Shown: piece by piece, positions 891 through 35,605 of the stretch
Layout: each line of letters begins with the position of its first letter
How positions within the stretch are numbered: the first letter of the stretch is position 1
Source of the DNA: Halocynthiibacter sp. SDUM655004
GTDB taxonomy: Bacteria > Pseudomonadota > Alphaproteobacteria > Rhodobacterales > Rhodobacteraceae
NCBI RefSeq assembly: GCF_026015885.1
Contig: NZ_JAPDUG010000001.1
Span: forward strand, 1,178,001 to 1,242,000
DNA length: 64,000 bases
Direction: 5' to 3'
Notes under the pieces: model-generated
Databases searched by the model: none
What the model saw: only the letters and a program-made list of their open reading frames with translations
What the model was told of the DNA's origin: nothing
Made by a program: the position numbers and the translations under genes

Positions 891-1586
<696 letters not shown>

Positions 1587-18725: not shown

Positions 18726-19079
18726 ATGATAGATCTTATGACATTGATCACACCCGATGAGGATAGAGGCAATTCGGCAGAGCTGCTTGGGATTGCAGAA
18801 AAACACTTTGAGCGCCTTGCGGGCGCTTTGGACAGGGCGGTTGTTGCCGTTGAGCAAGGCCAGCCCGAAACCGCGAAAGAGGCAAATGGCCTCGTGCGGG
18901 ATTTGAGTAAATCGCTTCAGTCCGTGATGGAAGAAAGGGTACGCGTTGAGAAACTCCGCAGGCAGAACGCCGGAATCGTTCACGACTTCGCCATCGACTT
19001 TGACAGCGCCCGATCTGAAATTCGGGGCCGGTTGGCTCGCCTCCGCGCCACAGTTGGCGCAGGAGGTGTTTCTGAATGA
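18726..19079 (+). CDS. GTA gp1, putative small terminase
   Basis: A 117-residue, largely helical protein. LRRQNAGIVHDFAIDFDSARSEIRGRLARL at the C-terminal third corresponds to the helix-turn-helix-like end of GTA small terminases, which recruit DNA to the large subunit. GAGAGG precedes the ATG. Its stop codon lies in the ATGA overlap region where the terminase large subunit begins in another frame. Position at the head of the cluster supports the call. Confidence 0.8.
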   Translation: MIDLMTLITPDEDRGNSAELLGIAEKHFERLAGALDRAVVAVEQGQPETAKEANGLVRDLSKSLQSVMEERVRVEKLRRQNAGIVHDFAIDFDSARSEIRGRLARLRATVGAGGVSE

Positions 19080-20361
19080 GTTAAGCGAGGGAGCGCTTTT
19101 GGCGCTGCCTTGGCTGTTTGAGTTCTGGGCGTTTCCGCATCAATTGCCGCCCGAGGGCGAGGATTGGCGCACATGGGTGATCATGGGCGGCCGTGGTGCG
19201 GGCAAGACGCGCGCAGGGGCGGAATGGGTGCGCTCTGAGGTTGAGGGGGCAAAGCCGCTGGATGCGGGGCGCTCGCGCCGTGTGGCGCTTGTTGGGGAAA
19301 CCATCGATCAGGTGCGTGAGGTCATGGTGTTTGGCGAGAGCGGGATATTGGCCTGTTCTCCGCCAGACCGCCGCCCTGAGTGGCAGGCAACGCGAAAGCG
19401 GCTGTTGTGGCCCAATGGGGCGACGGCGCAGATATTTTCTGCTCATGATCCAGAGAGCCTTCGGGGGCCGCAGTTTGATGCGGCGTGGGTGGATGAACTG
19501 GCCAAGTGGAAGCGGGCAGAGGAGACTTGGGATATGCTTCAGTTCGGCCTTCGGCTTGGGGATGTGCCGCGCCAATGCGTGACGACCACACCGCGCAATG
19601 TGCCTATTCTGAAGGGCATTCTTAGCAACTCGACCACGGTTGTAACCCAAGCACCAACGGAGGCGAACCGTGCGTATCTGGCGGAGAGTTTCCTTGAGGA
19701 GGTGCGCAACCGCTATGCGGGGACGCGGCTTGGGCGGCAGGAACTTGATGGCGAGCTGCTGGAAGATACGCAGGGCGCGCTTTGGACGCTGGGCTTGCTG
19801 GATCAGGCGCGGGTCGAGGAGGCGGGCACGTTGGGACGTGTTGTTGTGGCGGTTGATCCGCCTGTGACGGGGCATAAGGGCTCGGACGAATGCGGGATCG
19901 TTGTGGTGGGTGCAAACACCAAGGGCGCACCGAAGGACTGGCACGCGGTTGTGCTTGAGGATGCCACGGTAAGCGGGGCCACGCCGGATGAGTGGGCGCG
20001 AGCAGCGCTGGCGGCGATGGAACGGCATGAGGCGGATTGTCTTGTGGCCGAAGTTAATCAGGGCGGTGATCTGGTTGAGTCGGTGATCCGACAGGTTGAT
20101 GCGCTGGTGCCGTATAAGGCGGTGCGGGCGAGTAAGGGCAAGAGCGCACGGGCGGAACCCGTGGCGGCGCTCTATGCGCAGGGGCGGATCAAGCACCTTG
20201 GGGCGCTGAACGGGCTTGAGGACCAGATGTGCCGTATGACCCAGCAGGGGTACGAGGGCAAGGGAAGCCCCGACCGCGTAGATGCGCTGGTGTGGGCGGT
20301 GACGGAATTGTTGATCCAGCCCAACAGGGGCGCGCAACACCCCCGCGTACGCAGCCTTTAA
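19066..20361 (+). CDS. GTA large terminase subunit (packaging ATPase and nuclease)
   Basis: Motor that cuts and pumps host DNA into the capsid. Seen: Walker A GGRGAGKTRAG, Walker B region FDAAWVDELAKW, coupling motif TTTPRN, and the RNase H-like nuclease starting VVVAVDPPVTG, with VAEVNQGGD and DRVDALVWA at the end. About 430 residues, normal. The start is unclear: the homologous reading (LNELSEGALLALPW) has no ATG. Candidates are GTG at 19066, abutting AGGAG, or CTG at 19072, five bases after AGGAGG. The ATG at 19076 is in another frame and reads only ATG AGT TAA. Confidence 0.93.
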   Translation: MFLNELSEGALLALPWLFEFWAFPHQLPPEGEDWRTWVIMGGRGAGKTRAGAEWVRSEVEGAKPLDAGRSRRVALVGETIDQVREVMVFGESGILACSPPDRRPEWQATRKRLLWPNGATAQIFSAHDPESLRGPQFDAAWVDELAKWKRAEETWDMLQFGLRLGDVPRQCVTTTPRNVPILKGILSNSTTVVTQAPTEANRAYLAESFLEEVRNRYAGTRLGRQELDGELLEDTQGALWTLGLLDQARVEEAGTLGRVVVAVDPPVTGHKGSDECGIVVVGANTKGAPKDWHAVVLEDATVSGATPDEWARAALAAMERHEADCLVAEVNQGGDLVESVIRQVDALVPYKAVRASKGKSARAEPVAALYAQGRIKHLGALNGLEDQMCRMTQQGYEGKGSPDRVDALVWAVTELLIQPNRGAQHPRVRSL

Positions 20362-20507
20362 CGCATCTTTAGGCATTTCTGAGAAACTGAATTCAGCAAA
20401 GATCGAACGATATTTTCATTGATCGCCAAAGGGTTGCGCAGCGCGGCTTGGGTGATTGAGCGGGGATGGTTCGGGCAAAATTGGCGAAGACACAGGAGCT
20501 TCTTCAC

Positions 20508-21686
20508 ATGGTATTTGACTTTTTGAAACGCGGTGAGGCGGCGGCGCCTGTGATTGAGCAGAAGGCCTCTGCAACGGGACGCGTCTTGGCCTATAGCGGT
20601 TCGGGGCGAGTGGCGTGGAGCCCGCGCGATACGGTTTCGCTCACGAAAACGGGGTTTGCGAACAATCCGGTTGGGTTTCGTTCGGTCAAGCTGATTGCAG
20701 AAGCCGCAGCAGCCTTGCCATTGGTATTGCAGGATAAGGGGCAGCGCTTTGAAGTGCATCCCGTTCTGAGCCTGCTTGCAGAGCCGAATGCAGTTCAGGG
20801 GCGGGCAGAGCTTTTTGAAAGCCTGTTTGGCCAGCTCCTATTGACCGGAAACGGATATCTGGAGGCTGTTGCGACGGAGGAGGGCGCGCCGTTTGAGCTG
20901 CATGTCTTGCGGAGCGACCGAATGCGTATTGTGCCAGGTGAGGATGGCTGGCCCGCGGCGTATGAATATGCGGTGGGCAACCGTAAACATCGGTTTGATG
21001 CAAGCGGTGTGGTTAGCCCGATTTGCCACATCAAGAGCTTCCACCCGCAGGATGATCATTACGGTTTAAGCCCGATGCAGGCGGCGGCGAGTGCGCTGGA
21101 TGTGCATAACGCGGCGAGCCGGTGGAGCAAGGGGTTGCTGGATAATGCGGCGCGTCCGAGTGGTGCGATTGTTTACAACGGTCCAGACGGGCAGAGCATG
21201 AGCCATGACCAGTATGAGCGCCTACAGGACGAAATGGCGGCGTATCATCAGGGGGCGGCGAACGCGGGACGCCCGATGTTGCTTGAGGGCGGTTTGGATT
21301 GGAAGCCGATGGGGTTCTCGCCGAGCGATATGGAGTTCCAGAAAACCAAGGAGGCAGCGGCGCGAGAGATCGCGATTGCCTTTGGGGTGCCGCCGATGCT
21401 GCTCGGTATTCCGGGCGATGCGACTTACGCCAATTATCAAGAGGCCAACCGCGCGTTTTACCGATTGACGGTGGTGCCACTGGCAACGCGAGTGGCGGCG
21501 AGCGTGGGGGCTTGGCTGGCGCGGTACACGGGGGAGAAGCTGGATTTGCGCCCCGATCTTGATCAGGTGACGGCGCTTTCGGCGGAGCGGGATTCCCAAT
21601 GGCGGCGGGTTAGTGAGGCGACGTTCCTGACGCAGGCAGAGAAACGCGCGCTGCTTGGGCTTCCCAAACAGGCAGAGGAAGAATGA
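20508..21686 (+). CDS. GTA portal protein (HK97 family)
   Basis: Dodecameric ring at one capsid vertex through which DNA enters. 392 residues from ATG 20508 with AGGAG eight bases upstream; starts MVFDFLKRGE. Family motifs: NPVGFRSVKLIAEAAAALP, NGYLEAV, HIKSFHPQDDHYGLSPMQAA, SKGLLDNAARPSG, EIAIAFGVPPMLLGI and ANYQEANRAFY. The 146 bases before it hold no gene. Overlaps g3.5 by four bases. Confidence 0.95.
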   Translation: MVFDFLKRGEAAAPVIEQKASATGRVLAYSGSGRVAWSPRDTVSLTKTGFANNPVGFRSVKLIAEAAAALPLVLQDKGQRFEVHPVLSLLAEPNAVQGRAELFESLFGQLLLTGNGYLEAVATEEGAPFELHVLRSDRMRIVPGEDGWPAAYEYAVGNRKHRFDASGVVSPICHIKSFHPQDDHYGLSPMQAAASALDVHNAASRWSKGLLDNAARPSGAIVYNGPDGQSMSHDQYERLQDEMAAYHQGAANAGRPMLLEGGLDWKPMGFSPSDMEFQKTKEAAAREIAIAFGVPPMLLGIPGDATYANYQEANRAFYRLTVVPLATRVAASVGAWLARYTGEKLDLRPDLDQVTALSAERDSQWRRVSEATFLTQAEKRALLGLPKQAEEE

Positions 21687-21931
21687 GTGCGCCGAACCCA
21701 ACACCGAGCGGGTCCCGCTTTCTCTATGACAGTTTCGACGCCGCATCGGCCCGCATCGAGGCCAACGAGCGGGTGAGTAAGCTGCAGTTTGCAACTCTGG
21801 AGCAGCGGCTTGGGCGGATCGAAGTGATGATCGAGCGGCTTGAGCGACGTTTGTGGTTGGCGGTTTACGGGGTTGTGGGCGTGATCTTGGCGCAAGGCGT
21901 TGCTTCGCTCCTGGATATGGCGCCGAAATGA
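21683..21931 (+). CDS. GTA gp3.5 small protein
   Basis: An 82-residue protein between portal and protease, overlapping the portal stop by ATGA. A helix with heptad-like spacing (QRLGRIEVMIERLERRL) leads into one transmembrane segment (WLAVYGVVGVILAQGVASLL). A gene of this size and position is present in other roseobacter GTA clusters; its function is not established. Confidence 0.78.
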   Translation: MSAPNPTPSGSRFLYDSFDAASARIEANERVSKLQFATLEQRLGRIEVMIERLERRLWLAVYGVVGVILAQGVASLLDMAPK

Positions 21932-21942
21932 GGAAAGACAAT

Positions 21943-22512
21943 ATGAATTCAACGGATTATACAGCGGGCCTTGAGCAGAAATTCTGTCGGTTTGACGAGG
22001 GCGTTTCGGTCACGGATGGCACGCAGATCGAAGGCTATGCGAGCTTGTTTGGAGCTTGTGATCAGGGCGGCGATATTGTTGAGGCCGGGGCCTATGCAGC
22101 GTCGCTGGCACAGCTCTCCGCAAAGAAGCGCAGCGTAAAAATGCTTTGGCAACACGACCCTGCGCAACCCATCGGTATCTGGGACGAGGTGCGCGAGGAC
22201 GGCAAGGGGCTCTATGTGAAAGGGCGCCTGCTGACCGAGGTGGCGAAGGGCCGCGAGGCGGCGGAATTGATTGCGGCGGGGGCGATTGACGGGCTGTCGA
22301 TCGGATACCGCACGCGCAAAGCGACGAAGAACAAGAAGGGCCAGAGGCTCTTGACGGAACTGGAGCTTTGGGAGGTGTCGCTTGTGACATTCCCGATGCT
22401 GCCGGAGGCGCGGGTCGGGGCGAAGGGCGATAGCCTTGCGGCTGATGACTTGTTGCGTGACTTGGCAGGGGTCTTGAGCGACGCCCGCCACAAGCTGGCC
22501 CAAGGCATCTGA
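21943..22512 (+). CDS. GTA prohead maturation protease (HK97 type)
   Basis: Serine protease that trims the capsid protein after prohead assembly. 189 residues from ATG 21943 with AGGAAAG upstream; an in-frame ATG at 21928 is possible. Seen: IEGYASLFGACDQGGDIVEAGAY, MLWQHDP with the catalytic histidine, and DGLSIGYRTRK with the catalytic serine. Length and place before the capsid gene are typical. Confidence 0.93.
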   Translation: MNSTDYTAGLEQKFCRFDEGVSVTDGTQIEGYASLFGACDQGGDIVEAGAYAASLAQLSAKKRSVKMLWQHDPAQPIGIWDEVREDGKGLYVKGRLLTEVAKGREAAELIAAGAIDGLSIGYRTRKATKNKKGQRLLTELELWEVSLVTFPMLPEARVGAKGDSLAADDLLRDLAGVLSDARHKLAQGI

Positions 22513-22548
22513 AGCCAGCGATCTAACCTCTCTCTAAAGGATTAATCC

Positions 22549-23751
22549 ATGAGCAAAACCGAGACAAAGGCTCGGGCCGGGACAGCTGTGTCTGACGGTC
22601 TGTCGCCGGCCGCGGAGGTCAAGACCGCGCTGACCGGCTTCGTGAGCGATATCAAAACTTTAACAGACGAAACGAAATCAAAACTTCAACTACAGGAAGA
22701 GCGACTGACCATGCTGGAACGCAAACATATGACTGCCAAACGCCCCCAACTTTCGGCCACTGCCGAGGTGGAGGTTCCACATCAAAAGGCGTTTAACGCT
22801 TATCTGCGTGCCGGCGACGATGACGCGCTTCGTGGCCTTGCCGTTGAGGAAAAATCCATGAATACGGCCGTTGCTGGCGAGGGGGGTTATCTGGTGGACC
22901 CGAAGACCAGCGAAACGATCAAAGGTGTGCTTTATGCGACGGCGTCGATCCGTTCGATTGCGACCGTGGTTGAGGTTGAGGCCACGAGCTATGATGTTTT
23001 GGTGGATCACACCGAGGTCGGTACTGGCTGGGCAAGCGAAACAGGCTCTGTGACCGAGACAGCTACACCGAGCTTTGACCGCATTTCGATCCCGCTTCAC
23101 GAGCTTTCTGCGCTTCCCAAAGCAAGTCAGCGTCTGCTTGACGATGCGGCGTTTGATATCGAGGGCTGGCTCGCGGGCCGCATCGCGGACAAATTCGCGC
23201 GCGCAGAGGCAGCGGCCTTTGTGAATGGTGACGGCGTGGATAAGCCTACGGGCTTCCTGACGAAATCCATCGTGGCCAATGGCGCGTGGTCTTGGGGTAA
23301 CCTTGGCTATGTGGCGACGGGCGAGGATGGCGATTTTGCCAATATCAACGCCAGCGATGCAATTGTGGACCTCGTTTATGCGCTTGGTGCTGAATACCGC
23401 GCCAATGCGACATTCGTGATGAACTCCAAAACAGCTGGTGCCGTACGCAAAATGAAGGATGCCGATGGGCGTTTCTTGTGGAGCGACGGGCTTCAGGCGG
23501 GCGAACCTGCGCGTTTGATGGGCTATCCGGTGATGATTGCCGAGGACATGCCGGATATCGCCTCTGATGCGACAGCGATTGCCTTTGGTGACTTTTCCAA
23601 CGGGTACACCATTGCCGAGCGTCCGGACCTGCGGGTGTTGCGTGATCCGTTCTCTGCGAAACCAAACGTGCTGTTCTATGCCACCAAGCGCGTTGGCGGA
23701 GACGTGAGCGATTTTGCTGCGATCAAACTTCTGAAATTCGCCGTCAGCTAA
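22549..23751 (+). CDS. GTA major capsid protein (HK97 fold)
   Basis: Forms the icosahedral or slightly oblate shell. 400 residues: an N-terminal scaffold domain of about 100 residues, mostly coiled coil (SDIKTLTDETKSKLQLQEERLTMLE), expected to be removed by the protease, then the HK97 core starting near AVAGEGGYLVDPKTSETI. Further motifs: ALPKASQRLLDDAAFDIEGWL, VNGDGVDKPTGFL, ATFVMNSKTAGAVRKMKDADGRFLW and MGYPVMIAEDMP. Followed by the longest gap in the cluster, 183 bases, with an inverted repeat. Confidence 0.97.
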   Translation: MSKTETKARAGTAVSDGLSPAAEVKTALTGFVSDIKTLTDETKSKLQLQEERLTMLERKHMTAKRPQLSATAEVEVPHQKAFNAYLRAGDDDALRGLAVEEKSMNTAVAGEGGYLVDPKTSETIKGVLYATASIRSIATVVEVEATSYDVLVDHTEVGTGWASETGSVTETATPSFDRISIPLHELSALPKASQRLLDDAAFDIEGWLAGRIADKFARAEAAAFVNGDGVDKPTGFLTKSIVANGAWSWGNLGYVATGEDGDFANINASDAIVDLVYALGAEYRANATFVMNSKTAGAVRKMKDADGRFLWSDGLQAGEPARLMGYPVMIAEDMPDIASDATAIAFGDFSNGYTIAERPDLRVLRDPFSAKPNVLFYATKRVGGDVSDFAAIKLLKFAVS

Positions 23752-23786
23752 CCCTGATTGGCGAAGGCCCCGACATGGGGTCACAC

Positions 23787-23858
23787 CGGGCGCGTACCGT
23801 TGGTTCGTGTTGTCTAGCTGCTCCCCTCCGTCCGAGCGATGCGGCAGGTACGCGCCCG
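23787..23858 (+). ncRNA. Long-range stem-loop between capsid and adaptor genes
   Basis: CGGGCGCGTACC (23787-23798) and GGTACGCGCCCG (23847-23858) are perfect 12-base complements across 48 bases. In RNA they would form a very stable stem 36 bases after the capsid stop codon. The gap (23752-23934) has no plausible gene: frames crossing it lack a ribosome binding site. No T run follows, so it is not an ordinary terminator. It might protect the capsid mRNA 3' end or tune expression between capsid and tail genes. Confidence 0.55.
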
Positions 23859-23934
23859 AATTGCAGAGCCTTTGGCCCGTATGAGGCGGAGAGGCTGCGG
23901 CGGAGGCTAGTTTTACGGGAATTCGGAGTTTTCC

Positions 23935-24531
23935 ATGATGTTAATCGAGCAAACCACAGTGCCAGCGGCGGCGCTTCCGGTCGAGAAATTCAAAGAGCAT
24001 TTGCGCATGGGCTCCGGCTTTTCGGATGATGCGCTTCAGGACAGCATTCTCGAGACGTGCTTGCGCAGCGCGATGGCGGCGATTGAGGCGCGCACGGGCA
24101 AGGTTTTGATTGAGCGTGAGTTTCTATGGCAGCTGACAGGCTGGCGCGCGCTGAGTGAGCAGGCGTTGCCTGTGGCACCGGTTGGTGCGGTTTCGTCGCT
24201 GAAGACGCTGGACCGGCTGAGCAGCGCCACGGAGATTGATGCGGCGCGGTTTGTTTTGCAGCGCGACGCGCACCGCCCGAAGCTTTTGCCAACGGGTGCG
24301 TGCCTGCCGACGATCCCCCTGGGGGGGACGGCTGAGGTTGTGTTTACAGCAGGGTTTGGCGCCGATTGGAACGACATCCCCGCAGACCTTGCGCAAGCGG
24401 TCATGTTGGTGGCGGCGCAGTTCTATGAGCATCGGGGCGATATGCGCGCGCGGGGCGACACGCTTCCGGTTGGGGTGAACAGCTTGATCGCGCCGTATCG
24501 AACGGTTCGCATTCTTGGGGGGGCGGCGTGA
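23935..24531 (+). CDS. GTA head-tail adaptor (gp6-like connector)
   Basis: A 198-residue protein that docks beneath the portal. It begins MMLIEQTTVPAAALPVEKFKEHLRM, the usual opening of phi-E125 gp8/HK97 gp6-type connectors, followed by helical segments and the strand-rich part with AEVVFTAGFGADWNDIPADLAQAVMLVAAQFYEHRGD, a recognisable family end. CGGAG upstream of the start. Overlaps g7 by one to four bases. Confidence 0.9.
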   Translation: MMLIEQTTVPAAALPVEKFKEHLRMGSGFSDDALQDSILETCLRSAMAAIEARTGKVLIEREFLWQLTGWRALSEQALPVAPVGAVSSLKTLDRLSSATEIDAARFVLQRDAHRPKLLPTGACLPTIPLGGTAEVVFTAGFGADWNDIPADLAQAVMLVAAQFYEHRGDMRARGDTLPVGVNSLIAPYRTVRILGGAA

Positions 24532-24869
24532 TGGCGATACCCGAATTGAACAGGAAGCTGACCCTTGAGGCGCCTGTGCGCGTTGCTGATGGCGCGGGGG
24601 GGTATTCGGAGACATGGCAGGCACTAGGTACGCTCTGGGCCGCGATCAAGTTCAGCACAGGGCGCGAGAAGGCAGGTGATTTTGTCACCGTCTCTACCCA
24701 GAAATTGCGGATCACTGTGCGGGCCGCACCAGAGGGCAGCGCGAGCCGCCCGCATCCGGAGCAGCGGTTTACAGAGGGCGCGCGCGTTTATCGCATTTTG
24801 GCGGTCGCGGAGGCGGATAGCCAAGGGCGCTACTTGACCTGTACCGCGGAAGAAGAGGTGGTCTCATGA
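24531..24869 (+). CDS. GTA head closure / stopper protein
   Basis: A 112-residue beta-rich protein of the SPP1 gp16-like head-tail joining family. It starts MAIPELNRKLTLEAPVRVADGAGGYSETWQALGTLWA, the family's typical opening, and ends with RILAVAEADSQGRYLTCTAEEE. ATG at 24531 shares one base with the adaptor stop; GTG at 24528 would add one residue. Overlaps the next gene by four bases. Confidence 0.87.
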   Translation: MAIPELNRKLTLEAPVRVADGAGGYSETWQALGTLWAAIKFSTGREKAGDFVTVSTQKLRITVRAAPEGSASRPHPEQRFTEGARVYRILAVAEADSQGRYLTCTAEEEVVS

Positions 24870-25276
24870 GTTATGGCGTTTCGGCAGCGCTTCAGGGCGC
24901 TGTCTATCAAAAGCTGGCAGCGGATACGGCGCTTGGCGCGCTGGTGGGGGCTGCGATCTATGATCGTCCTCCGAGCGGGGCTTTACCGCCCACCTATGTG
25001 AGCCTTGGGCCAGAAGACGTGCGCAACCGTGCGGATAAAGACGGCTATGGCGCGCTGCATATGTTCACGGTTTCCGTTGTTACGGAGGCGGCAGGTTTCC
25101 AGAGCGCCAAGGAAGTGGCGGCGGCGATTTCGGACTGCTTGGTGGATGCGGACCTGACGCTTTCGCGCGGGCGGCTTGTGTATCTCAATTTTGATCGAGC
25201 GGTAGCGCGGCGCGTGGGCAAGGGCGAGACGCGCCGGATTGACCTGAAGTTCCGCGCTCGCGTGGAAGACAACTGA
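24866..25276 (+). CDS. GTA tail terminator protein (DUF3168)
   Basis: A 136-residue protein that caps the tail tube at the head end. DUF3168 features: MSYGVSAALQGAVYQKLAAD, IYDRPPSGALPPTYVSLG, HMFTVSVVTEAAGFQSAKEVAAAI. It begins within the ATGA overlap with the stopper gene and is followed 22 bases later by the tail tube gene. Confidence 0.9.
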   Translation: MSYGVSAALQGAVYQKLAADTALGALVGAAIYDRPPSGALPPTYVSLGPEDVRNRADKDGYGALHMFTVSVVTEAAGFQSAKEVAAAISDCLVDADLTLSRGRLVYLNFDRAVARRVGKGETRRIDLKFRARVEDN

Positions 25277-25298
25277 TTACTTTACTGGAGGATTTCTC

Positions 25299-25712
25299 AT
25301 GGGTGCCCAAAACGGCAAGGACCTACTTATCAAGCTCGACATGACCGGTGGCGGGCAATTTGAAACCATCGCGGGGCTGCGCGCAACGCGGATCAGCTTT
25401 AACGCGGAAACCGTGGATGTGACTTCGTTGGAAAGCCAGGGCGGGTGGCGCGAGCTTCTTTCGGGCGCAGGAGTGAAATCGGCATCTATCTCTGGCTCCG
25501 GTATCTTCAAGGACGAAAGTACGGATGAACGGGCGCGGCAGATATTCTTTGACGGCGAAACGCCACAGTTTCAGGTGATCATCCCCGATTTCGGCGTTGT
25601 TGAAGGCGCGTTTCAGGTGACCTCGATTGAATATGCGGGAAGCCACAACGGCGAGGCGACCTATGAGCTGGCGATGGCCTCTGCGGGCGCATTGCAGTTC
25701 ACCGCACTTTGA
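25299..25712 (+). CDS. GTA major tail protein
   Basis: Tail tube subunit of 137 residues, TP901-1 type. It starts MGAQNGKDLLIKLDM and shows AGLRATRISFNAETVDVTSLESQGGWRELLSGAGVKSASISGSG, the signature region of the family. GGAGG precedes the start. Overlaps the following chaperone gene region by the TGA/TTGA junction. Confidence 0.94.
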   Translation: MGAQNGKDLLIKLDMTGGGQFETIAGLRATRISFNAETVDVTSLESQGGWRELLSGAGVKSASISGSGIFKDESTDERARQIFFDGETPQFQVIIPDFGVVEGAFQVTSIEYAGSHNGEATYELAMASAGALQFTAL

Positions 25713-25720
25713 GGGCGCGG

Positions 25721-26041
25721 ATGATGGCGAACCCATTGGCAGGTGAGGTTGATCTGGTGATCGACGGAGAACGGCGCAGTTTGAAGCTGACCCTCGGTGC
25801 GTTGGCGGAGCTTGAGGCGTGTCTTGAGGCCGGAACGCTCATTGACCTTGTGGAACGGTTTGAGAGCGGAGGATTCTCTACGCGTGATGTCTTGGCGCTG
25901 ATTGTGGCGGGCTTGCGTGGCGGGGGGTGGCGCGGAACGGGCGCAGACCTGCTTGAGACCGAGATTGAGGGCGGCCCGATTGAGGCGGCGCGGGTGGCGG
26001 CGGTCTTGCTCGCGCGGGCGTTTACGGTTCCGAGCGCGTGA
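25721..26041 (+). CDS. GTA tail assembly chaperone, first part (Phage_TAC_11-like)
   Basis: A 106-residue protein starting MMANPLAGEVDLVIDGERRSLKLTLGALAELEACL, the typical GTA TAC opening. In tailed phages two such products prevent early polymerisation of tail proteins on the tape measure, often made by a frameshift; here they are two separate genes joined by a GTGA overlap. A TTG start at 25709 is possible, but GAGG sits before the ATG pair at 25721/25724. Confidence 0.85.
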   Translation: MMANPLAGEVDLVIDGERRSLKLTLGALAELEACLEAGTLIDLVERFESGGFSTRDVLALIVAGLRGGGWRGTGADLLETEIEGGPIEAARVAAVLLARAFTVPSA

Positions 26042-26247
26042 CTTTGGGGCCACAGGATGGGCGCAGCATGGACTGGCCTGCGCTGATGCGGGCCGGGATG
26101 CGCGGCCTAGGCATGACACCGCGCGATTTCTGGGCGCTCACACCAGCGGAGCTGATGCTGATGCTGGGCAGTGAGGACGCGGCGAAACCGCTTGGCCGAA
26201 GCCGGTTGGAAGAGTTGGCGCGGAAGTTCCCTGACACGGCTGGTTAG
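26038..26247 (+). CDS. GTA tail assembly chaperone, second part (DUF2376-like)
   Basis: A 69-residue protein that begins with GTG overlapping the previous stop (GTGA). It contains DWPALMRAGMRGLGMTPRDFWALTPAELMLMLG, the known second TAC product of GTA clusters, with conserved W-LTPAEL. Translational coupling via the overlap is likely. Confidence 0.83.
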   Translation: MTLGPQDGRSMDWPALMRAGMRGLGMTPRDFWALTPAELMLMLGSEDAAKPLGRSRLEELARKFPDTAG

Positions 26248-26279
26248 AAGGCTGAACGAATGTGGAAAAGGAAAATGGA

Positions 26280-26945
26280 ATGACCAAAGACGTTGATGGC
26301 ATTGGTGAATTTGACGACCGCGTGGAGGCGCTTGAGAACTCGCTGTCGGGCGCAAGCGCTATGTCGGCCACATTCGAGGCGGAACTCTTGCGGATGCGCG
26401 AAACGCTGAGTTCGACAGGGCTTGAGGTGTCGAGCCTGTCGAGCGGGATCGGCCGCGGATTGCGCCGCGCCTTTGATGGCTTGGTGTTTGACGGGATGAA
26501 GCTCTCGGATGCGCTGAACACAGTAGGGCGGTCGATGATCGACACAGCCTATGCGGCAGCGATCAAGCCGGTGACAAACCAACTTGGAGGGATCATTGCC
26601 AGCACGGTGAATGATGCTGTGGGGGGCGTTATGGGCTTTCAAAGCGGAGGCGCGTTTACGCAAGGCAAGGTGATGCCCTTTGCGAAAGGTGGGGTCATTT
26701 CAGGGCCGACAAACTTTCCGATGCGCGGCGGCATGGGCCTCATGGGTGAAGCAGGCCCCGAAGCGATTATGCCGCTTGCGCGTGGGGCCGATGGCAGCCT
26801 TGGCGTACGCACGCAGGGGGGCGGTAGGCCGGTCAATATCACGATGAACATTTCAACGCCTGATGTGCAGGGGTTCAAACGCAGTCAGGGGCAGATTGCG
26901 GCGCAGTTGAGCCGTGCGGTCGGGCGCGGTCAACGCAACGCTTAA
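26280..26945 (+). CDS. GTA tape measure protein (short, lambda type)
   Basis: Sets tail length. 221 residues from ATG 26280 with AAGGAAA upstream; a GTG at 26262 would add six residues. N-terminal half is helical and coiled (FDDRVEALENSLSGASAMSATFEAELLRMRETL); the C-terminal half carries the conserved GFQSGGAFTQGKVMPFAKGGVI, MGLMGEAGPEAIMPLARG and NITMNIST motifs of lambda-type tape measures. The small size agrees with the short tail of RcGTA-like particles. Confidence 0.9.
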   Translation: MTKDVDGIGEFDDRVEALENSLSGASAMSATFEAELLRMRETLSSTGLEVSSLSSGIGRGLRRAFDGLVFDGMKLSDALNTVGRSMIDTAYAAAIKPVTNQLGGIIASTVNDAVGGVMGFQSGGAFTQGKVMPFAKGGVISGPTNFPMRGGMGLMGEAGPEAIMPLARGADGSLGVRTQGGGRPVNITMNISTPDVQGFKRSQGQIAAQLSRAVGRGQRNA

Positions 26946-26957
26946 GGAGGGACGGAC

Positions 26958-27590
26958 ATGGGGTTTCACGAGGTAAGATTTCCGGCAACGCTGAGTTTTG
27001 GTTCCGTCGGTGGGCCAGAGCGGAAAACGGATGTTGTCACACTGGCCAACGGGTTTGAGGAGCGTAATACGCCCTGGGCCCATTCTCGTCGCCGCTATGA
27101 CGCGGGTGTCGGGATGCGCTCGCTGGATGACGTGGAGACGCTTTTAGCGTTTTTTGAAGCACGCCGCGGGCAGCTTTTCGGGTTTCGGTGGAAGGATTGG
27201 TCGGATTTCAAATCAGGTAAGGCTTCGGTCGAGCCGGATTACGAGGACCAGCGCATCGGTACAGGGGATGGGGAAACTGCGGTTTGGCAGCTGACCAAGA
27301 CTTATGCCTCGGGGACGCATGACTATGTGCGGCCAATCCATAAGCCCGTAGAGGGAACCGTTAAGATCGGTGTTCAGGGTGATCCATTGCAGGAGAGCGT
27401 GGACTATGAGGTAGACCATGCCACAGGGCAGGTGACCTTTAGCCATCCGCCGGACGTTGGCGTTACGATTACCGCTGGGTTCGAGTTTGACGTGCCTGTA
27501 CGGTTTGATGCCGATCATATCCACACTTCTGTTGCAAGTTTTCAGGCGGGTGACGTGCCAAACGTGCCGATCGTGGAGGTGCGGGTCTGA
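26958..27590 (+). CDS. GTA distal tail protein (DUF2460)
   Basis: A 210-residue baseplate ring protein. It starts MGFHEVRFPATLSFGSVGGPERKTDVVTLANGFEERNTPWAHSRRRYDAG and includes FFEARRGQLFGFRWKDWSDFKS, both DUF2460 hallmarks, then a galectin-like strand-rich end. GGAGG precedes the start; it shares one base with the hub gene. Confidence 0.95.
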   Translation: MGFHEVRFPATLSFGSVGGPERKTDVVTLANGFEERNTPWAHSRRRYDAGVGMRSLDDVETLLAFFEARRGQLFGFRWKDWSDFKSGKASVEPDYEDQRIGTGDGETAVWQLTKTYASGTHDYVRPIHKPVEGTVKIGVQGDPLQESVDYEVDHATGQVTFSHPPDVGVTITAGFEFDVPVRFDADHIHTSVASFQAGDVPNVPIVEVRV

Positions 27591-28498
27591 TGGGGATAGA
27601 TGCTGATTTTCTGGCGCATTTGAAGAGCGGCTACACGAGCGTATGTCGATGCTGGGCTGTTACGCGCACAGATGGGGTAAGGCTTGGGTTTACAGATCAT
27701 GACCGGACGCTTTCGTTTGAGGGGATTGAGTTCGTCGCCGAAACGGGGCTGACGGCGCGGGCTTTGCAGCAAACAACAGGGCTTGCGGTTGATAACAGCG
27801 AGGCCGTTGGGGCGCTTTGCAGTGATATGATCCGCGAGGAGGATATTGCTGCGGGCCGGTATGACGGGGCAGAGGTTCTGGCGTGGCTTGTGAACTGGCA
27901 GGACGTGAGCCAGCGGCATTTGCAGTTTCGGGGCACCCTTGGCGAGTTAACGCGCGGAGACGGCGCATTTCAGGCGGAACTGCGCGGGCTGACCGAAGCG
28001 TTGAACCAACCACAGGGACGGAGCTTTCAGAAGCCGTGCACCGCGGTGCTGGGAGATACGAATTGCAAGTTTTCGCTAAAGAAAACAGGCTTTGCGACTG
28101 AGCGAGAGATCGCTGAAGTTCTAGGCAACCGTGTTCTGCGATTCAACGGCATGAAGAGCTTTGATGATCGATGGTTCGAGCGTGGGCGGTTTGAGATCAT
28201 GAGTGGGGCCGGCGCTGGGCTTGTCGGGATTGTAAAAAATGATCGGCTGACAGATGCACACCGCGAAATCGAACTGTGGGAAGCGCCGCGCCTTGGACTC
28301 GCAGTTGGTGATGTGATCCGGTTTGAGGCCGGCTGTGACAAGCGGGTTGCGACCTGCAAGCACAAGTTCAACAACTACATCAATTTTCAAGGGTTTCCGC
28401 ATATCCCTGGCGAGGATTGGCTGATGTCTGTACCTCGGCGTGGTGGCCGGAATGACGGCGGGAGCCGCATTTCCGGCTCGGGCGGAGGTGCGGCATGA
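27590..28498 (+). CDS. GTA baseplate hub protein (DUF2163)
   Basis: A 302-residue protein. The N-terminal DUF2163 domain shows LKSGYTSVCRCWAVTRTDGVRLGFTDHDRTLSFEG and EVLAWLVNW. The C-terminal part has four cysteines in the pattern CTAVLGDTNCKFS and CDKRVATCKHKFNNYINFQGFPHIPGEDWL, the conserved end of the family; as I recall, structural work on RcGTA places an iron-sulfur cluster in the hub. Overlaps the peptidase gene by four bases. Confidence 0.95.
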   Translation: MGIDADFLAHLKSGYTSVCRCWAVTRTDGVRLGFTDHDRTLSFEGIEFVAETGLTARALQQTTGLAVDNSEAVGALCSDMIREEDIAAGRYDGAEVLAWLVNWQDVSQRHLQFRGTLGELTRGDGAFQAELRGLTEALNQPQGRSFQKPCTAVLGDTNCKFSLKKTGFATEREIAEVLGNRVLRFNGMKSFDDRWFERGRFEIMSGAGAGLVGIVKNDRLTDAHREIELWEAPRLGLAVGDVIRFEAGCDKRVATCKHKFNNYINFQGFPHIPGEDWLMSVPRRGGRNDGGSRISGSGGGAA

Positions 28499-28932
28499 GG
28501 AACGACATCCTGACCTCTGCGCGAGCGTGGATTGGCACGCCCTATGTGCATCAAGCTTCAACGAAACATGCGGGTGCGGATTGCCTTGGGCTGCTGCGCG
28601 GGGTCTGGCGCGAGGCGCTGGGCGTGGAGCCGGTTGCGGCGCCCAACTATACACCAGACTGGAGCGAGCCCACGGGCGAGGAGACACTTTGGTCGGCGGC
28701 GCGGGCTTATTTGAAGGAGAAGCCGCGCACAGATGCAGCAGCGGGCGATGTGCTCTTGTTTCGAATGCGCGCTGGATCAGTGGCCAAACACCTTGGCATT
28801 CAAGGCAAAACAGGTGAGGGCGCGACGTTTGTGCATGCCTACATGGGCCACGGTGTGGTGGAAAGTCCGCTTTCCCTGCCGTGGCAGCGCCGGATTGTGG
28901 CGCGGTTCGAATTTCCTGAGGAGGGCAAATAA
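28495..28932 (+). CDS. GTA NlpC/P60 cell-wall peptidase
   Basis: A 145-residue peptidase carried in the baseplate to open recipient peptidoglycan. Cys30 in HAGADCLGL, His99 in AKHLGI and His114 in FVHAYMGHGVVE fit the catalytic triad of the NlpC/P60 fold. Overlaps the hub gene by ATGA and the megatron gene by one base, so hub, peptidase and megatron are made together. Confidence 0.95.
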   Translation: MRNDILTSARAWIGTPYVHQASTKHAGADCLGLLRGVWREALGVEPVAAPNYTPDWSEPTGEETLWSAARAYLKEKPRTDAAAGDVLLFRMRAGSVAKHLGIQGKTGEGATFVHAYMGHGVVESPLSLPWQRRIVARFEFPEEGK

Positions 28933-31900
28933 TGGCGACGGTTGTACTTGCTGCTGTTGGATACAGTGTAGGGGCCTCCTTGGGTGGCGCGGCGTTTGGG
29001 ATTTCGTCGGCCATCATCGGGCGCGCGGTTGGCGCCACTGTGGGTCGAATGATCGACCAGCGATTGCTGGGTGGCGGCAGCCAGGCCGTGGAAACGGGCC
29101 GCGTGGACCGGTTCCGTTTGACGGGGGCAAGCGAAGGCGCGCCGATTCCGCAAATTTACGGAAGGATGCGAACCGCGGGGCAGGTGATCTGGGCCTCGGA
29201 GTTTAGTGAGCGCAAGAAGAAATCCGGTGGTGGCGGTGGCAAGGGCGGCCCAAAGGAGCCGGAGGTCACGAGCTATTCTTACTCGGTGAGTGCAGCGGTT
29301 GCGCTCTGCGAGGGAGAGATTTCAGGAATTGGACGTGTCTGGGCAGATGGGGTCGAGATTGCGCGGGATGATCTGAATATGCGGGTCTATTCGGGGAGTC
29401 AGGATCAGATGCCGGACCCGAAAATCGAAGCTGTAGAGGGGCAGGGCAATACGCCGGCCTATCGTGGCATCGCCTATGTGGTGTTTGAGAACCTGCAACT
29501 GGCGCAGTTTGGCAACCGTTTCCCACAGTTCAACTTCGAGGTTCTACGGCCTGCGCAGGTTGATCTGGAAACTGCGGAAGCCGATCCTGTTACGGCAGTA
29601 GAGGGGGTCGCGCTCATTCCTGGAACGGGTGAATATGCGCTAGCAACAACGCCGGTGCATTACAGCAGCGGTTTGGGCAAAAACCGTTCCGCGAACGTAA
29701 ATACACCATCTGGGAAAACCGATTTCGCAACGTCAATGGAAGCGCTGCGGGATGAAATGCCTAAAGTGAAATCGGTGTCGCTTGTTGTGTCGTGGTTTGG
29801 TGACGACTTGCGGATGAACAAATGCGAGATCCAGCCGAAGGTCGAGCAGAAGATACTGGACGGCACAACGATGCCTTGGCGTGTTTCTGGCGTGACACGG
29901 AGTGGTGCGCGGAAGGTTCCGAAGGAAGATGGGCGCTCCATTTATGGCGGGACACCGACGGATGCCTCTGTGGTCGAGGCTATTTCCGAGATGAACGATG
30001 GTGGGCAAGATGTTGTTTTCTATCCGTTTATCCTGATGGATCAGGAGAGCGGTAACGGGAAGATCGACCCATATACTGGCGCAGCAGACCAGCCGAAATT
30101 GCCGTGGCGCGGGCGGATTACGCTTTCCGTGGCACCGGGCCAGAGTGGCAGCCCCGATCAAACTGCGTCAGCCACAAGTGAAGTGGATGCGTTCTTTGGT
30201 ACAGCGCAAGTGGATGATTTTACGATCAACGGTACCAACGTGAATTATACCGGTCCGTCGGAATGGAGCTACCGTCGGTTCATCCTGCACTATGCGCATT
30301 TGTGTAAGGCTGCAGGCGGTGTTGCGGCGTTCTGCATCGGGTCGGAAATGCGTGGGCTGACGCAGGTGCGTGACGCGTCAAACGGGTTTCCGGCGGTTGA
30401 GAAACTTCGCCAGTTGGCAGCGGACGTAAGGGCTGTCTTGGGGCCGCAGTGCAAACTTAGTTATGCGGCAGATTGGAGCGAGTATTTCGGCTATCATCCG
30501 CAGGACGGATCAGGTGATGTTTACTTCCATCTTGATGCGCTTTGGGCAGATGCGAACATCGATTTCATCGGCATCGATAACTACATGCCGCTGTCGGATT
30601 GGCGCGACGGTGCGGATCATCAGGACGCCGGTTGGGGCTCGATTCACAATCTTGAATACCTGATGGCCAATATCGAAGGCGGTGAGGGGTATGACTGGTA
30701 TTATCATTCCAAAGCGGCCGAACGCGCACAAATCCGAACACCTATTGAGGATGGGGCCCACGGCGAAGATTGGGTTTGGCGATATAAGGATATTCGTGGC
30801 TGGTGGCAGAATAGGCACCACAATCGCATTGGCGGTGAGCGGCAGGCGCAAGCGACCGCTTGGGTGCCCGAAAGCAAGCCAGTGTGGTTTACCGAAATCG
30901 GCTGTGCTGCGGTTGATAAAGGTACGAACCAGCCCAACAAGTTTCTGGACCCGAAATCGAGCGAAAGCAGCTTGCCGAAATATTCTGACGGGACACGAGA
31001 TGACCTGATCCAGATGCAGTATTTGCGGGCGCTCTATGCGTATTGGCGGGATCCTGCGAATAATCCCGTGAGTGCCGAAACTGGTGTTCCGATGATTGAT
31101 ATGTCGCGTGCGCATGTTTGGGCGTGGGACGCGCGGCCATTTCCGTATTTTCCGAACAACGGAAATTTGTGGTCAGACGGTGGCAACTACGCACGAGGGC
31201 ATTGGCTCAACGGGCGGACGGTTGCACGATCTTTGGCGTCGGTCGTGGGCGAAATTTGTGAGCGTTCCGGCGTAACGGATTATGACACAAGCGCGCTTTA
31301 TGGCTTTGTGCGCGGCTATCAGGTTGCGGATGTGACCACGGCTCGTTCGGCGTTGCAGCCGCTGATGCTGGCCTATGGGTTTGAAGCGATCGAGCGTGAT
31401 GGCATGCTTGTTTTCAAGACTCGCGACGGGATCGCAGACGTAGAAATTCTGCCTGAACAGATGGCGGATTTGCCCGATCAGGATGCGGTTTTGCAGCGCA
31501 TGCGCGCGCCGACAGCGGAAACGGCGGGACGTATCCGGCTGGCGTTTGTGGAGAGCGACGGAGATTTCGAAGTCCGTGCTGCGGAGGCAATTCATCCGGA
31601 TGAGGTGACCTTTTCTGTGTCGCAATCCGAGTTGCCTCTGGCGCTTACGAAGGCAGAAGCGAGCACGATTGTAGAACGTTGGCTTGCCGAGAGCCGCGTT
31701 GCACGGGATGCGGTCCGGTTTGCGCTTCCGATGTCGGAGTTGGAGCTTGGGGCCGGCGATGTTGTTGCCCTGCCTGATGGGGAAGATTTTGCAAACTATC
31801 GTATTGATAACGTGGAGCAATCAGGTGCGCAGATCATCGACGCCGTTCGGGTTGAGAATGCGGTTTACACGGCGAGTGATGCGATCGAAGAGCCGACACC

Positions 31901-32858
31901 CCCGCGCAGTTTCACGCCGCCTGTTCCCGTTTTTGCGCAGTTCCTTGATCTGCCGTTATTGACGGGCGACGAAGCGCCACACGCGCCGCATCTGGCTGTT
32001 ACGGCGGAACCATGGCCAGGGTCTGTGGCGGTTTATAGTTCGGCGGAGTCCGATGACGCGGGCTATAGGCTCAATACACTGGTGAGCCAGCAGAGCGTGA
32101 TTGGGCAGACGGAGACACCCATGGTGGCGGCTCTGGCGGGTGTGCCTGATAACGGGGTGGCGCTGCGAGTGAAGCTTGCAACGGGGGAGCTTTCGTCTGC
32201 GACTTCGGATGCAGTTCTGAATGGCGCAAACCTTGCCGCGATTGGAGATGGCAACAGCGAGAATTGGGAGTTGTTCCAGTTCACAGAGGCCAGACTTGTG
32301 GCCGAAGACACATATGAGTTGTCGGGGCGGTTGCGCGGCCAGTTTGGGAGCGACGCGATTATGCCTGAGGTCTGGCCGGTTGGGAGCCTGTTTGTGCTTC
32401 TTGATGGGACTGCGGAGCAGATATCGCTTGCCACAAATGCAAGGGGGCTCGCGCGGAACTATCGGATTGGGCCAGCAACCCGTGGATATGATGATCCGAG
32501 CTATGAGCATAAGGTTGAGGCTTTTCAAGGGATTGGGTTGCGGCCCTATGCTCCGGTGCACTTAAAGGCGCAGGATGATGCAGGAGATCTGACCCTGAGT
32601 TGGATCAGGCGTGCGCGCGTGGAAGCAGACCAATGGAGTGGCTTTGACATCCCACTTGGCGAGGACAGTGAAAGCTATGTCGTTCGCGTACTCGAGGGCG
32701 AGGCCTTGCTGCGAGAGGCGACGGTTTCGACCCCAAGTTTCACCTATACAGCCGCGATGCAGGCAAGTGACGGCGGCGTGCCGGACGCATTCGAAGTCGC
32801 GCAAATCTCTCAGCGGTTCGGCGCGGGACCATTTAGAAGGAAAATGATCAATGACTAG
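28932..32858 (+). CDS. GTA megatron, large tail tip protein (TIM-barrel-like)
   Basis: Largest protein in the cluster, 1308 residues, the tip that contacts and penetrates the recipient envelope. N-terminus holds a hydrophobic Gly/Ala segment (VGASLGGAAFGISSAIIGRAVGA), then tail-tip strands with IPQIYGRMRTAGQVIWASEF. Residues about 430-760 form the GTA TIM-barrel-like domain (YADWSEYFGYHP, DFIGIDNYMPLSDWRDG, VWFTEIGCAAVDKG). The last 500 residues are phage tail_3-type beta domains. A GGGGKGG stretch near residue 100 may be a flexible loop. Frame is intact. Overlaps the DUF2793 gene by eight bases. Confidence 0.95.
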   Translation: MATVVLAAVGYSVGASLGGAAFGISSAIIGRAVGATVGRMIDQRLLGGGSQAVETGRVDRFRLTGASEGAPIPQIYGRMRTAGQVIWASEFSERKKKSGGGGGKGGPKEPEVTSYSYSVSAAVALCEGEISGIGRVWADGVEIARDDLNMRVYSGSQDQMPDPKIEAVEGQGNTPAYRGIAYVVFENLQLAQFGNRFPQFNFEVLRPAQVDLETAEADPVTAVEGVALIPGTGEYALATTPVHYSSGLGKNRSANVNTPSGKTDFATSMEALRDEMPKVKSVSLVVSWFGDDLRMNKCEIQPKVEQKILDGTTMPWRVSGVTRSGARKVPKEDGRSIYGGTPTDASVVEAISEMNDGGQDVVFYPFILMDQESGNGKIDPYTGAADQPKLPWRGRITLSVAPGQSGSPDQTASATSEVDAFFGTAQVDDFTINGTNVNYTGPSEWSYRRFILHYAHLCKAAGGVAAFCIGSEMRGLTQVRDASNGFPAVEKLRQLAADVRAVLGPQCKLSYAADWSEYFGYHPQDGSGDVYFHLDALWADANIDFIGIDNYMPLSDWRDGADHQDAGWGSIHNLEYLMANIEGGEGYDWYYHSKAAERAQIRTPIEDGAHGEDWVWRYKDIRGWWQNRHHNRIGGERQAQATAWVPESKPVWFTEIGCAAVDKGTNQPNKFLDPKSSESSLPKYSDGTRDDLIQMQYLRALYAYWRDPANNPVSAETGVPMIDMSRAHVWAWDARPFPYFPNNGNLWSDGGNYARGHWLNGRTVARSLASVVGEICERSGVTDYDTSALYGFVRGYQVADVTTARSALQPLMLAYGFEAIERDGMLVFKTRDGIADVEILPEQMADLPDQDAVLQRMRAPTAETAGRIRLAFVESDGDFEVRAAEAIHPDEVTFSVSQSELPLALTKAEASTIVERWLAESRVARDAVRFALPMSELELGAGDVVALPDGEDFANYRIDNVEQSGAQIIDAVRVENAVYTASDAIEEPTPPRSFTPPVPVFAQFLDLPLLTGDEAPHAPHLAVTAEPWPGSVAVYSSAESDDAGYRLNTLVSQQSVIGQTETPMVAALAGVPDNGVALRVKLATGELSSATSDAVLNGANLAAIGDGNSENWELFQFTEARLVAEDTYELSGRLRGQFGSDAIMPEVWPVGSLFVLLDGTAEQISLATNARGLARNYRIGPATRGYDDPSYEHKVEAFQGIGLRPYAPVHLKAQDDAGDLTLSWIRRARVEADQWSGFDIPLGEDSESYVVRVLEGEALLREATVSTPSFTYTAAMQASDGGVPDAFEVAQISQRFGAGPFRRKMIND

Positions 32859-33561
32859 CACAGCGAATTTTGCCCTGCCTTTGGTGCAACCAAGCCAGGC
32901 ACAGAAACATGTTACGGTTAACGAAGCGCTGGTGCGGCTCGACGGGCTTTCGCAGCTTGTCTTGGCCTCGGTCGACACGGTGACACCGCCGTTGGCGGCC
33001 GATGAGGGCGCTTGTTATGCCGTGCCGACAGGAGCTGTAAATGCTTGGGCCGGACAAGGAGGAAAGGTGGCAATTTTCTCCAATGGAGGCTGGATATTTG
33101 TGACACCCAAAACAGGGTGGCGCGGATGGGTCGAAGACATGAGCCGCGCGGTACATTTTGACGGCAGCAACTGGGTTCAGGGCGCTCTTGCGCAGAGCCC
33201 AAATGGCGCGGCTTCGGGCTTTCATGTGCTTGAAATTGATCACGTTTTGAATGCTGGCGCGACAGATAGCACCATTCCGTTCATTCCCGCTCATGCGATG
33301 GTGTTCGGAGTGTCGGGTGTTGTGACGGATGCGATTACGGGCACGCTGACCGATTGGAGCCTTGGAACGGTGAGTTCTGCTGCGCAATATGGCAGCGGGC
33401 TGGGGCTTTCGCAGGGATCATATGTAAAGGGAACGCTCTCGTATGCCAGCACGGAGTATGCGCCCAGTGGCTTGGTCTTGACGGCAAATGGCGGTGATTT
33501 TGCAGGGGGAACGGTGCGGCTGGCCGTGCATTATTATGCGCTAACCATACCGCAGCTTTGA
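32851..33561 (+). CDS. DUF2793 domain protein, GTA-associated
   Basis: A 236-residue protein whose first 90 residues are DUF2793: NFALPLVQPSQAQKHVTVNEALVRLDGLSQLVL, then AWAGQGGKVAIFSNGGWIFVTPKTGWRGWVED. The second half (from HVLEIDHVLN) is a beta-rich domain ending LAVHYYALTIPQL, reminiscent of GTA tail fibre or spike C-termini. It starts inside the megatron stop, so is co-translated with it. Probably a particle surface component, perhaps a fibre that binds capsule; that is inference. Confidence 0.85.
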   Translation: MTSTANFALPLVQPSQAQKHVTVNEALVRLDGLSQLVLASVDTVTPPLAADEGACYAVPTGAVNAWAGQGGKVAIFSNGGWIFVTPKTGWRGWVEDMSRAVHFDGSNWVQGALAQSPNGAASGFHVLEIDHVLNAGATDSTIPFIPAHAMVFGVSGVVTDAITGTLTDWSLGTVSSAAQYGSGLGLSQGSYVKGTLSYASTEYAPSGLVLTANGGDFAGGTVRLAVHYYALTIPQL

Positions 33562-33564
33562 CCG

Positions 33565-33891
33565 ATGCGCCCGTTCCTTCATGGTGATATCACGGCGCTT
33601 GCACGGGCGCTTGTTGCTCTGCCGCGAGCGGATTGGCCGCGCCGCGCGGTCGAGATTATGGCACAGGCCGAGGCAGCGGATATTTATCGCATAAGGACGG
33701 GACGGGCGCATCCGAATTGGGGCAATGGCAGCTTGATGGCGGCCGCAAATGCAACCGAGCAATTGCCAGAATCCGGACTTGAAGACAGGGTTTTCTGCGC
33801 GGCTTTGGCCTATGTTTTCGCGATGATTGCCACGCGGAACGGGCAAGAAACAAAGGCAGATCAAGCAAAAGTGAGGCCATTCCGTAACTGA
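33565..33891 (+). CDS. Small conserved GTA-adjacent protein
   Basis: A 108-residue protein beginning MRPFLHGDITALARALVALPRADWPRRAVEIMAQAEAADIYRIRTGRAHPNWGNGSL. This region with A-DWP, ADIYR and HP-WGNGSL is recognisable to me from the 3' end of other roseobacter GTA clusters, where its role is unknown. It follows the DUF2793 gene by three bases. Helical, soluble, no signal peptide. Last gene of the rightward GTA operon. Confidence 0.75.
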   Translation: MRPFLHGDITALARALVALPRADWPRRAVEIMAQAEAADIYRIRTGRAHPNWGNGSLMAAANATEQLPESGLEDRVFCAALAYVFAMIATRNGQETKADQAKVRPFRN

Positions 33892-33932
33892 ATGAGTGCT
33901 ATCACAGCTTTGCGATTGTCGGTTTCGTCCTA

Positions 33933-33948
33933 TCTACTATAAGGTAGA
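33933..33948. promoter_or_regulatory. Inverted repeat upstream of cysE
   Basis: TCTAC, TATAAG, GTAGA: 5-bp arms around a -10-like hexamer, 34 bases before the cysE start. A repressor bound here would cover the promoter. Short, so it may be chance. Confidence 0.3.
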
Positions 33949-33981
33949 CCTGACGAATTCAAAGCACGACGAGGGCACCCC

Positions 33982-35446: not shown

Positions 35447-35545
35447 TTAGAGTACACCGTCGCTTTCGGGTATCGGAAATCTGGCGGGTAGTCTTAACCC
35501 TATTGGATTGCAATAGGTATTTGAAGGGTGCGGCAAGGGCGCGCA

Positions 35546-35578
35546 TAGAAAAACGGCGCAGAATCTCTTCTGCGCCGT
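35546..35578 (-). terminator. Terminator of the pdh operon
   Basis: ACGGCGCAGAA (35553-35563), loop TCTC, TTCTGCGCCGT (35568-35578): perfect 11-bp stem followed on the minus strand by TTTTTCTATG. Confidence 0.85.
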
Positions 35579-35605
35579 AGCATTTCAGGTTGGTCGCGTT
35601 GTTGG

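Follow-up and report, generated by a model that had tools for sequence, protein, structure and literature searches.

A conserved structured RNA at the capsid-adaptor junction of Rhodobacteraceae GTA clusters

Comparison among related loci shows that the gap between g5 and g6, the capsid and adaptor genes of GTA clusters found in Rhodobacteraceae, encodes a conserved structured RNA, which has the same sense as the GTA genes and is tied to the capsid-adaptor junction. The conserved element is a hairpin, denominated P2, made of covarying helices closed by a nearly invariant loop. That P2 is a functional structured RNA is, from the comparative evidence given below, almost certain.

The g5-g6 gap and its hairpins

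The window, i.e. the whole 64,000-nt stretch of Halocynthiibacter sp. SDUM655004 DNA that was analysed, hosts a GTA cluster of the RcGTA type, with head and tail genes in order and nine proteins having Pfam matches. These are the terminase, the portal, the prohead protease, the HK97-type capsid protein g5, the connector/adaptor g6, the head completion, tail completion and tail tube proteins, and the GTA_TIM protein. The gap separating g5 and g6 (23752-23934) spans exactly 183 bases from the g5 stop to the g6 ATG, and is the longest untranslated one among g3-g15, as reported in the preliminary description; an apparent 220-bp hole located 3' of g10 contains a 69-aa ORF (26038-26247). The T run said to be missing is indeed lacking. 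No terminator-like or sigma-70-like promoter sites were found in the interval 23500-24200, and the gap does not feature a stem followed by a T run, as Rho-independent terminators do.

The features of the region are listed in Table 1. A perfect 12-base inverted repeat with 48 bases between the arms had been noticed earlier; it has been confirmed, and corresponds to the outer helix of P2. In the P2 core, a bulge separates this 12-bp helix from an inner one of 8 bp, which is closed by a nearly invariant 24-nt apical loop. The fold predicted for the isolated 183-nt sequence is at chance level (-72.9 kcal/mol, z -0.05, 92 of 200 shuffles being equally good), and the case therefore rests on the comparison among relatives. 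The structured RNA candidate initially proposed included also complementary AGCCT (23867-23871) and AGGCT (23892-23896 and 23904-23908) stretches. The stem is strongly supported by covariation; the AGCCT/AGGCT pair, not seen by eye in the tails of other loci, does not appear to be conserved.

Table 1. Position of genes, hairpins and sequence motifs at the capsid-adaptor junction of the window
Feature	Position	Strand	Evidence
g5, GTA major capsid protein, 400 aa	22549..23751	+	Pfam Phage_capsid, E 1.9e-93
P1 hairpin, GGCCCC-gacat-GGGGUC, directly 3' of the g5 stop	23766..23782	+	single-sequence fold
P2 conserved hairpin, model R1	23787..23859	+	R1, 82.2 bits, E 5.9e-13 (R1 was built from 60 rows, this copy included)
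P2 outer helix, 5' arm, pairs with 23847-23858	23787..23798	+	inverted repeat, covariation
P2 inner helix, 5' arm, pairs with 23837-23844	23805..23812	+	covariation
P2 apical loop UCUAGCUGCUCCCCUCCGUCCGAG, best conserved part	23813..23836	+	mean column identity 0.93, 24 columns
P2 inner helix, 3' arm	23837..23844	+	covariation
P2 outer helix, 3' arm	23847..23858	+	inverted repeat, covariation
G-rich stretch GGCGGAGG, loop-complementary	23899..23906	+	pairing only suggestive; in relatives, G-rich box about -29 to -23 before g6
g6 Shine-Dalgarno-like CGGAG	23924..23928	+	read from the sequence
g6, head-tail adaptor	23935..24531	+	Pfam Phage_connect_1, E 3.6e-5, above its cut-off

Covariation, strand and conservation of the loop

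By using the capsid protein, loci were fetched from 29 further Rhodobacteraceae genomes, and from 80 of 586 places encoding a relative. The 110 loci (L002-L111), the window's own included, were anchored by g5 and g6; some of them derive from the same or near-identical genomes (for example, L012 and L059). Gap length is 119-216 nt in 100 loci, 67-87 nt in four (L014, L064, L092, L109) and 364-448 nt in six (L027, L071, L079, L081, L094, L111). The g5-g6 gaps of relatives feature the loop motif UCUAGCUGCUCCCCUCCGUCCGAG atop a stem in which letters change.

MAFFT, with no structure given as a guide, was used to align sixty hairpins, among which that of the window, and two helices were found by RNAalifold in the alignment (A1). 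The rows are 60 of 87 distinct hairpins, and were hand-picked from the 79 that passed length and motif filters. In the 20-pair structure 96.2% of A1 cells are paired, and both sides change in 18 of the 20 pairs (143 cells), figures biased towards structure because the outer boundaries of the rows were placed by predicted pairing. Covariation is 0.504, versus 0.269 in shuffled alignments, and none of 500 shuffles was as high on any of five measures; pairing drops to 30-54% once one side is slid. The second set (A2) comes from at least 80 viral-collection contigs (IMG/VR) fetched by the loop pattern alone, the stem being unused in the choice. All the 80 contigs listed match R1, the covariance model built from A1, at E < 1e-5. 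In the 74 distinct rows of A2, 96.0% of the cells are paired, 19 of 20 pairs are doubly changed and no shuffle out of 500 does as well, although the alignment, being fitted to R1, also leans towards structure. Double changes involve 8/8 pairs of the inner helix in A1, and 7/8 in A2. Covariation of the stem, on which the preliminary description had staked its candidate, is therefore present in the 60 loci as well as in the 80 loop-fetched contigs.

R1 was found at E 0.01 in 52 of 72 loci scored, 22 of which are model members, and hence in 30 of 50 non-members. The 38 remaining loci being model members, the element is present in 90 of the 110 loci. Whole gaps of 104 Rhodobacteraceae loci have a mean folding z of -1.8. 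The P1 region, taken as the 55 nt that follow the g5 stop, has in the same number of loci a mean z of -2.0, and is below -1 in 79% of them, the sequence being variable. In the window the P1 region folds no better than shuffles (z +1.3).

G·U or U·G pairs occupy 172 A1 stem cells, versus 6 occupied by A·C or C·A. Since these figures would be reversed if the opposite strand were the functional one, the element is read as an RNA of the same sense as the GTA genes. Scores of R1 on the reverse strand are far lower: 24.3 vs 80.0 bits in L007, 23.6 vs 79.6 in L008, 23.6 vs 75.0 in L003. Compensatory changes beyond controls, and tolerance of G·U but not of A·C, both mark functional structured RNAs, and both are found here.

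The conserved apical loop is the main point absent from the earlier reading. Mean column identity in A1 is 0.928 in the loop (24 columns) and 0.775 in the stems. For the final 280 capsid codons of the same 60 loci, identity at third codon positions is 0.645, and the best of 808 windows of 24 nt attains 0.915, below the value of the loop; the contrast is overstated, as rows were chosen by motif and loop conservation is thereby inflated. As the loop exceeds any capsid window, strong selection is acting on it where it is kept.

Distribution of the element and gene content of the junction

A single R1 match up to E 1 was found in the window, and a single one in the whole genome, in which also the loop pattern (with at most 3 mismatches) occurs once. 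R1 matches were identified in 73 of 149 Rhodobacteraceae genomes, the window's own included, for a total of 74. All 74 share the strand of a GTA-type capsid match and follow it at a distance of 37-85 nt; none of the 149 genomes has the RNA without the capsid. In a class-wide sample, R1 was found by strict filters, with at most 16 candidates scored per genome, in 2 of 289 genomes, both Rhodobacteraceae; a capsid relative at E 1e-30 is present in 69 of the 289.

R1 is not universal. By strict filters, no match was found in 40 of 113 capsid-bearing Rhodobacteraceae genomes (118 genomes with a capsid match, minus the fragments or weak relatives G036, G061, G070, G092 and G144). Of the 40 R1-less gaps 37 were inspected, the other three being L010, L014 and L027. 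Fourteen measure only 58-113 nt, and the element is therefore dispensable in places. The rest includes 17 gaps of 128-182 nt, five of 277-480 nt, and one without a g6 match. A degenerate version of P2 is retained, by eye, in L307, L319, L330 and L335, all from the R1-less set. The P1 region has z values of -2.3 to -4.6 in six loci that lack P2 (L014, L037, L064, L065, L092, L109). G013, which belongs to the same genus as the window, has neither a capsid nor an R1 match, which suggests that its GTA cluster was lost. One locus of the class-wide set, L254, encodes a capsid 54% identical and features a 114-nt gap with a GC-rich hairpin, P2-like by eye, which has a pyrimidine-rich loop, CCUGUCCCCUCCCUCCC, and no R1 match.

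Among the matches listed in the viral collection, 79 of 80 have the RNA between g5 and g6; in the other, L206, the RNA follows g5 and the contig then ends. In at least 80 IMG/VR contigs (L133-L212) the motif follows a GTA-like capsid gene, and 79 of those listed also have a g6 match; GTA loci are thus counted there as viruses. As all the 80 listed contigs follow a GTA capsid gene, R1 could be used as a marker of Rhodobacteraceae GTA clusters. A DNA search of phages gave no match, and one of plasmids retrieved two Mesorhizobium records and nothing else, the 25-base match (E 0.5) falling within an integrase annotation. A search with the capsid found phage relatives below 60% identity only.

An extra small ORF is located between g5 and g6 in L094 (4273-4554) and L111 (3734-4051) and, by eye, also in L027. 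The extra ORF matches Pfam Gp77 (podophage fiber-tail adaptor) with E values of 7e-18 in L094 and 2e-15 in L111. Gaps of 418-448 nt were found in L071, L079 and L081, and a weak P2-like hairpin is kept in L071, L079 and L111. Outside Rhodobacteraceae, 13 of the 28 class loci inspected by eye (L254-L281) carry an ORF that separates the capsid gene from the one that follows. The ORF behind the L256 capsid (1052-1471, minus strand) corresponds to phrog_5707 (E 1.5e-37), the function of which is not annotated. Since many capsid loci outside Rhodobacteraceae thus have a different ORF behind the capsid, the junction is read as a place of gene gain or loss. An ancestral extra gene was also considered as the origin of the gap on account of the 13 ORFs, and discarded, as a link to P2 was not established.

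Proposed role, alternative readings and known systems

In RcGTA, according to the available part of PMC7296036, g6 is a dodecamer and the capsid is a T=3 lattice without five hexamers. The number of capsid subunits per particle can be computed as 180-30-5, one pentamer being replaced by the portal, or about 145, versus 12 adaptors. Deletion of the hairpin stabilising the 3' end of pufBA mRNA shifts the reaction-centre to LHI ratio, as described in the accessible sections of PMC10253847 and PMC6238624. Because of the unequal demand in RcGTA and of the puf precedent, P1 and P2 are held to be a segment boundary that favours the capsid: on balance, they probably work in cis between the two cistrons, to the benefit of an abundant capsid over a scarce adaptor and tail. 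Assuming that g5 and g6 lie on one polycistronic GTA message, the GC-rich P1 and P2 would shield the capsid segment from 3'-5' decay by capping its 3' side, and would separate capsid expression from that of g6, resulting in a large excess of capsid over adaptor and tail. The apical loop of P2 would be a recognition site, because a plain decay barrier needs no fixed loop. Docking of a protein is one possibility, and pairing with the g6 leader a less likely one; by pairing with the G-rich box and the SD sequence of the leader, the loop would damp adaptor translation. We infer these decay, translation and docking roles. The functions first suggested for the gap, as stabiliser, processing site or expression divider, fit its position and anatomy.

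In the literature searched, GTA control is exerted at the level of transcription (CtrA, GafA, GafYZ). With a conserved RNA between capsid and adaptor genes, a further layer would act after transcription, and the way in which a single cluster produces capsid in about twelvefold excess over adaptor becomes open to testing.

Pairing of the loop to the g6 leader was evaluated in several ways. In 168 distinct gaps the region upstream of g6 features a G-rich box (-29 to -23), a U-rich tract (-15 to -13) and CGGAG (-12 to -8). GGAG precedes g6 in 103 of 110 loci, and is preceded in turn by C or T in 95 of the 103; the own-genome background for C or T before GGAG is 40/102, as estimated by a crude ORF caller (464 kb, 321 ORFs). 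The loop is complementary to both G-box and SD. In 80 loci, its pairing with the stretch from P2 to the SD beats that obtained with dinucleotide-shuffled tails (0/200) or shuffled loops (1/200), and the mean energy of the duplex between loop and g6 leader is -12.9 (90 loci), versus -8.8 for random coding windows. The reversed loop pairs with g6 tails nearly alike (15.48 vs 15.53), and tails swapped among loci attain the same pairing in 46 of 500 trials. Leaders of g7 pair with the loop more strongly than those of g6 (-16.5; g6 is stronger in 11 of 54 loci), and leaders of g8 about as strongly (-12.6; g6 is stronger in 39 of 85). C or T is found before GGAG also in g9 (tail tube) leaders, in 65 of 71 from L002-L111, as in g6. 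On account of swapped tails, reversed loop, g7 and g8 leaders and the g9 nucleotide, loop-leader pairing is kept only as a possibility, and it seems doubtful that it represents the main action of the loop.

Protein sites usually look like this, with an invariant loop carried by a stem that varies and covaries. A putative protein (GTA-encoded, such as capsid or adaptor, or a host RNA-binding protein) might thus read the loop and switch g6 and downstream genes, as in a head-tail feedback, and the occurrence of R1 matches one per GTA capsid gene, 74 out of 74 at the capsid-adaptor junction, accords with such an operator. It is nonetheless an unlikely explanation, there being in the window's genome no second copy that points to a shared regulator. 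The narrower version, by which P2 would be the operator for capsid or adaptor, as structural proteins of the GTA, or for a dedicated regulator, and head assembly would feed back on the synthesis of neck and tail, appears improbable; if true, it would be a case of post-transcriptional assembly control in a domesticated phage.

P2 might alternatively be excised from the GTA message as a trans-acting sRNA, the C-rich, anti-SD-like loop of which blocks the ribosome sites of other mRNAs. The loop has CUCCCCUCCG, near the CCUCCUCCC of the anti-SD loops of cuckoo/CcsR RNAs described in the available text of PMC3927594, and Rhodobacter is known to produce UTR-derived sRNAs through maturation by RNase E, according to the portion of PMC8625941 at hand. 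Against a source of sRNA stand the lack of terminator-like sites and of Rfam matches, and the fact that nothing complementary to the 24-base loop pattern within 3 mismatches occurs in the window's genome; moreover, cis elements, more typically than sRNA sources, are strictly tied to a single junction. This makes the sRNA reading a rather remote one. Prospects are equally poor for a transcriptional checkpoint, at which the hairpins would pause or terminate RNA polymerase and a GTA activator would allow passage. GafZ of Caulobacter anti-terminates in such a way across GC-rich repeats of the CcGTA cluster, but the Caulobacter site is located 3' of the first gene of the cluster (both from the accessible part of PMC11150451). 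The gap has no T run or terminator-like site, and termination needs no invariant loop. Last, a DNA-level signal (protein, packaging or recombination site) merely resembling an RNA, which inverted repeat and GTA context may evoke, is hardly credible and has been rejected, as the prevalence of G·U over A·C cells and the strand-asymmetric R1 scores denote an RNA in gene sense.

The preliminary description knew of no account of the element, and this agrees with Rfam scans and with the open-licence literature. Rfam 15 gave no match at gathering score in the interval 19000-36000, nor up to E 10 in the interval 23700-24000. No description of an RNA element at g5-g6 was found among the open-licence articles listed by literature searches. 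The words terminator, intergenic, stem-loop and RNA structure are absent from PMC9638019, terminator and intergenic from PMC6363796, intergenic from the available part of PMC7296036, and capsid from PMC2864571, a survey of 104 RNA motifs.

Three known systems resemble the capsid-favouring boundary proposed for P1 and P2. CcGTA terGTA is, as P2, a GC-rich inverted-repeat element hosted in a GTA cluster; it differs in being made of three 150-bp direct repeats, located 3' of the first gene of the Caulobacter cluster (available part of PMC11150451). Cuckoo/CcsR RNAs share with P2 conserved C-rich, anti-SD-like loops, variable stems, and residence in alphaproteobacteria. They are trans sRNAs featuring two to four hairpins with CCUCCUCCC loops, in the available part of PMC3927594, whereas P2 is one two-helix hairpin within an operon, and its loop is longer and different. 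Tandem hairpins carrying CCUCCUCCC were not found in the gap, which has one conserved hairpin with CUCCCCUCCG. Rhodobacter puf offers a likeness in position and anatomy. A stable hairpin is found directly behind the highly demanded cistron in Rhodobacteraceae GTA loci, P1 being weak in the window. The function of the puf hairpin has been shown experimentally, whereas we infer that of P2, which in addition has a long, near-invariant apical loop. In both pufA-pufL and the GTA gap, within the same bacterial family, a hairpin separates a gene in excess demand from genes in lesser demand, and for both a segmental control of the mRNA has been proposed.
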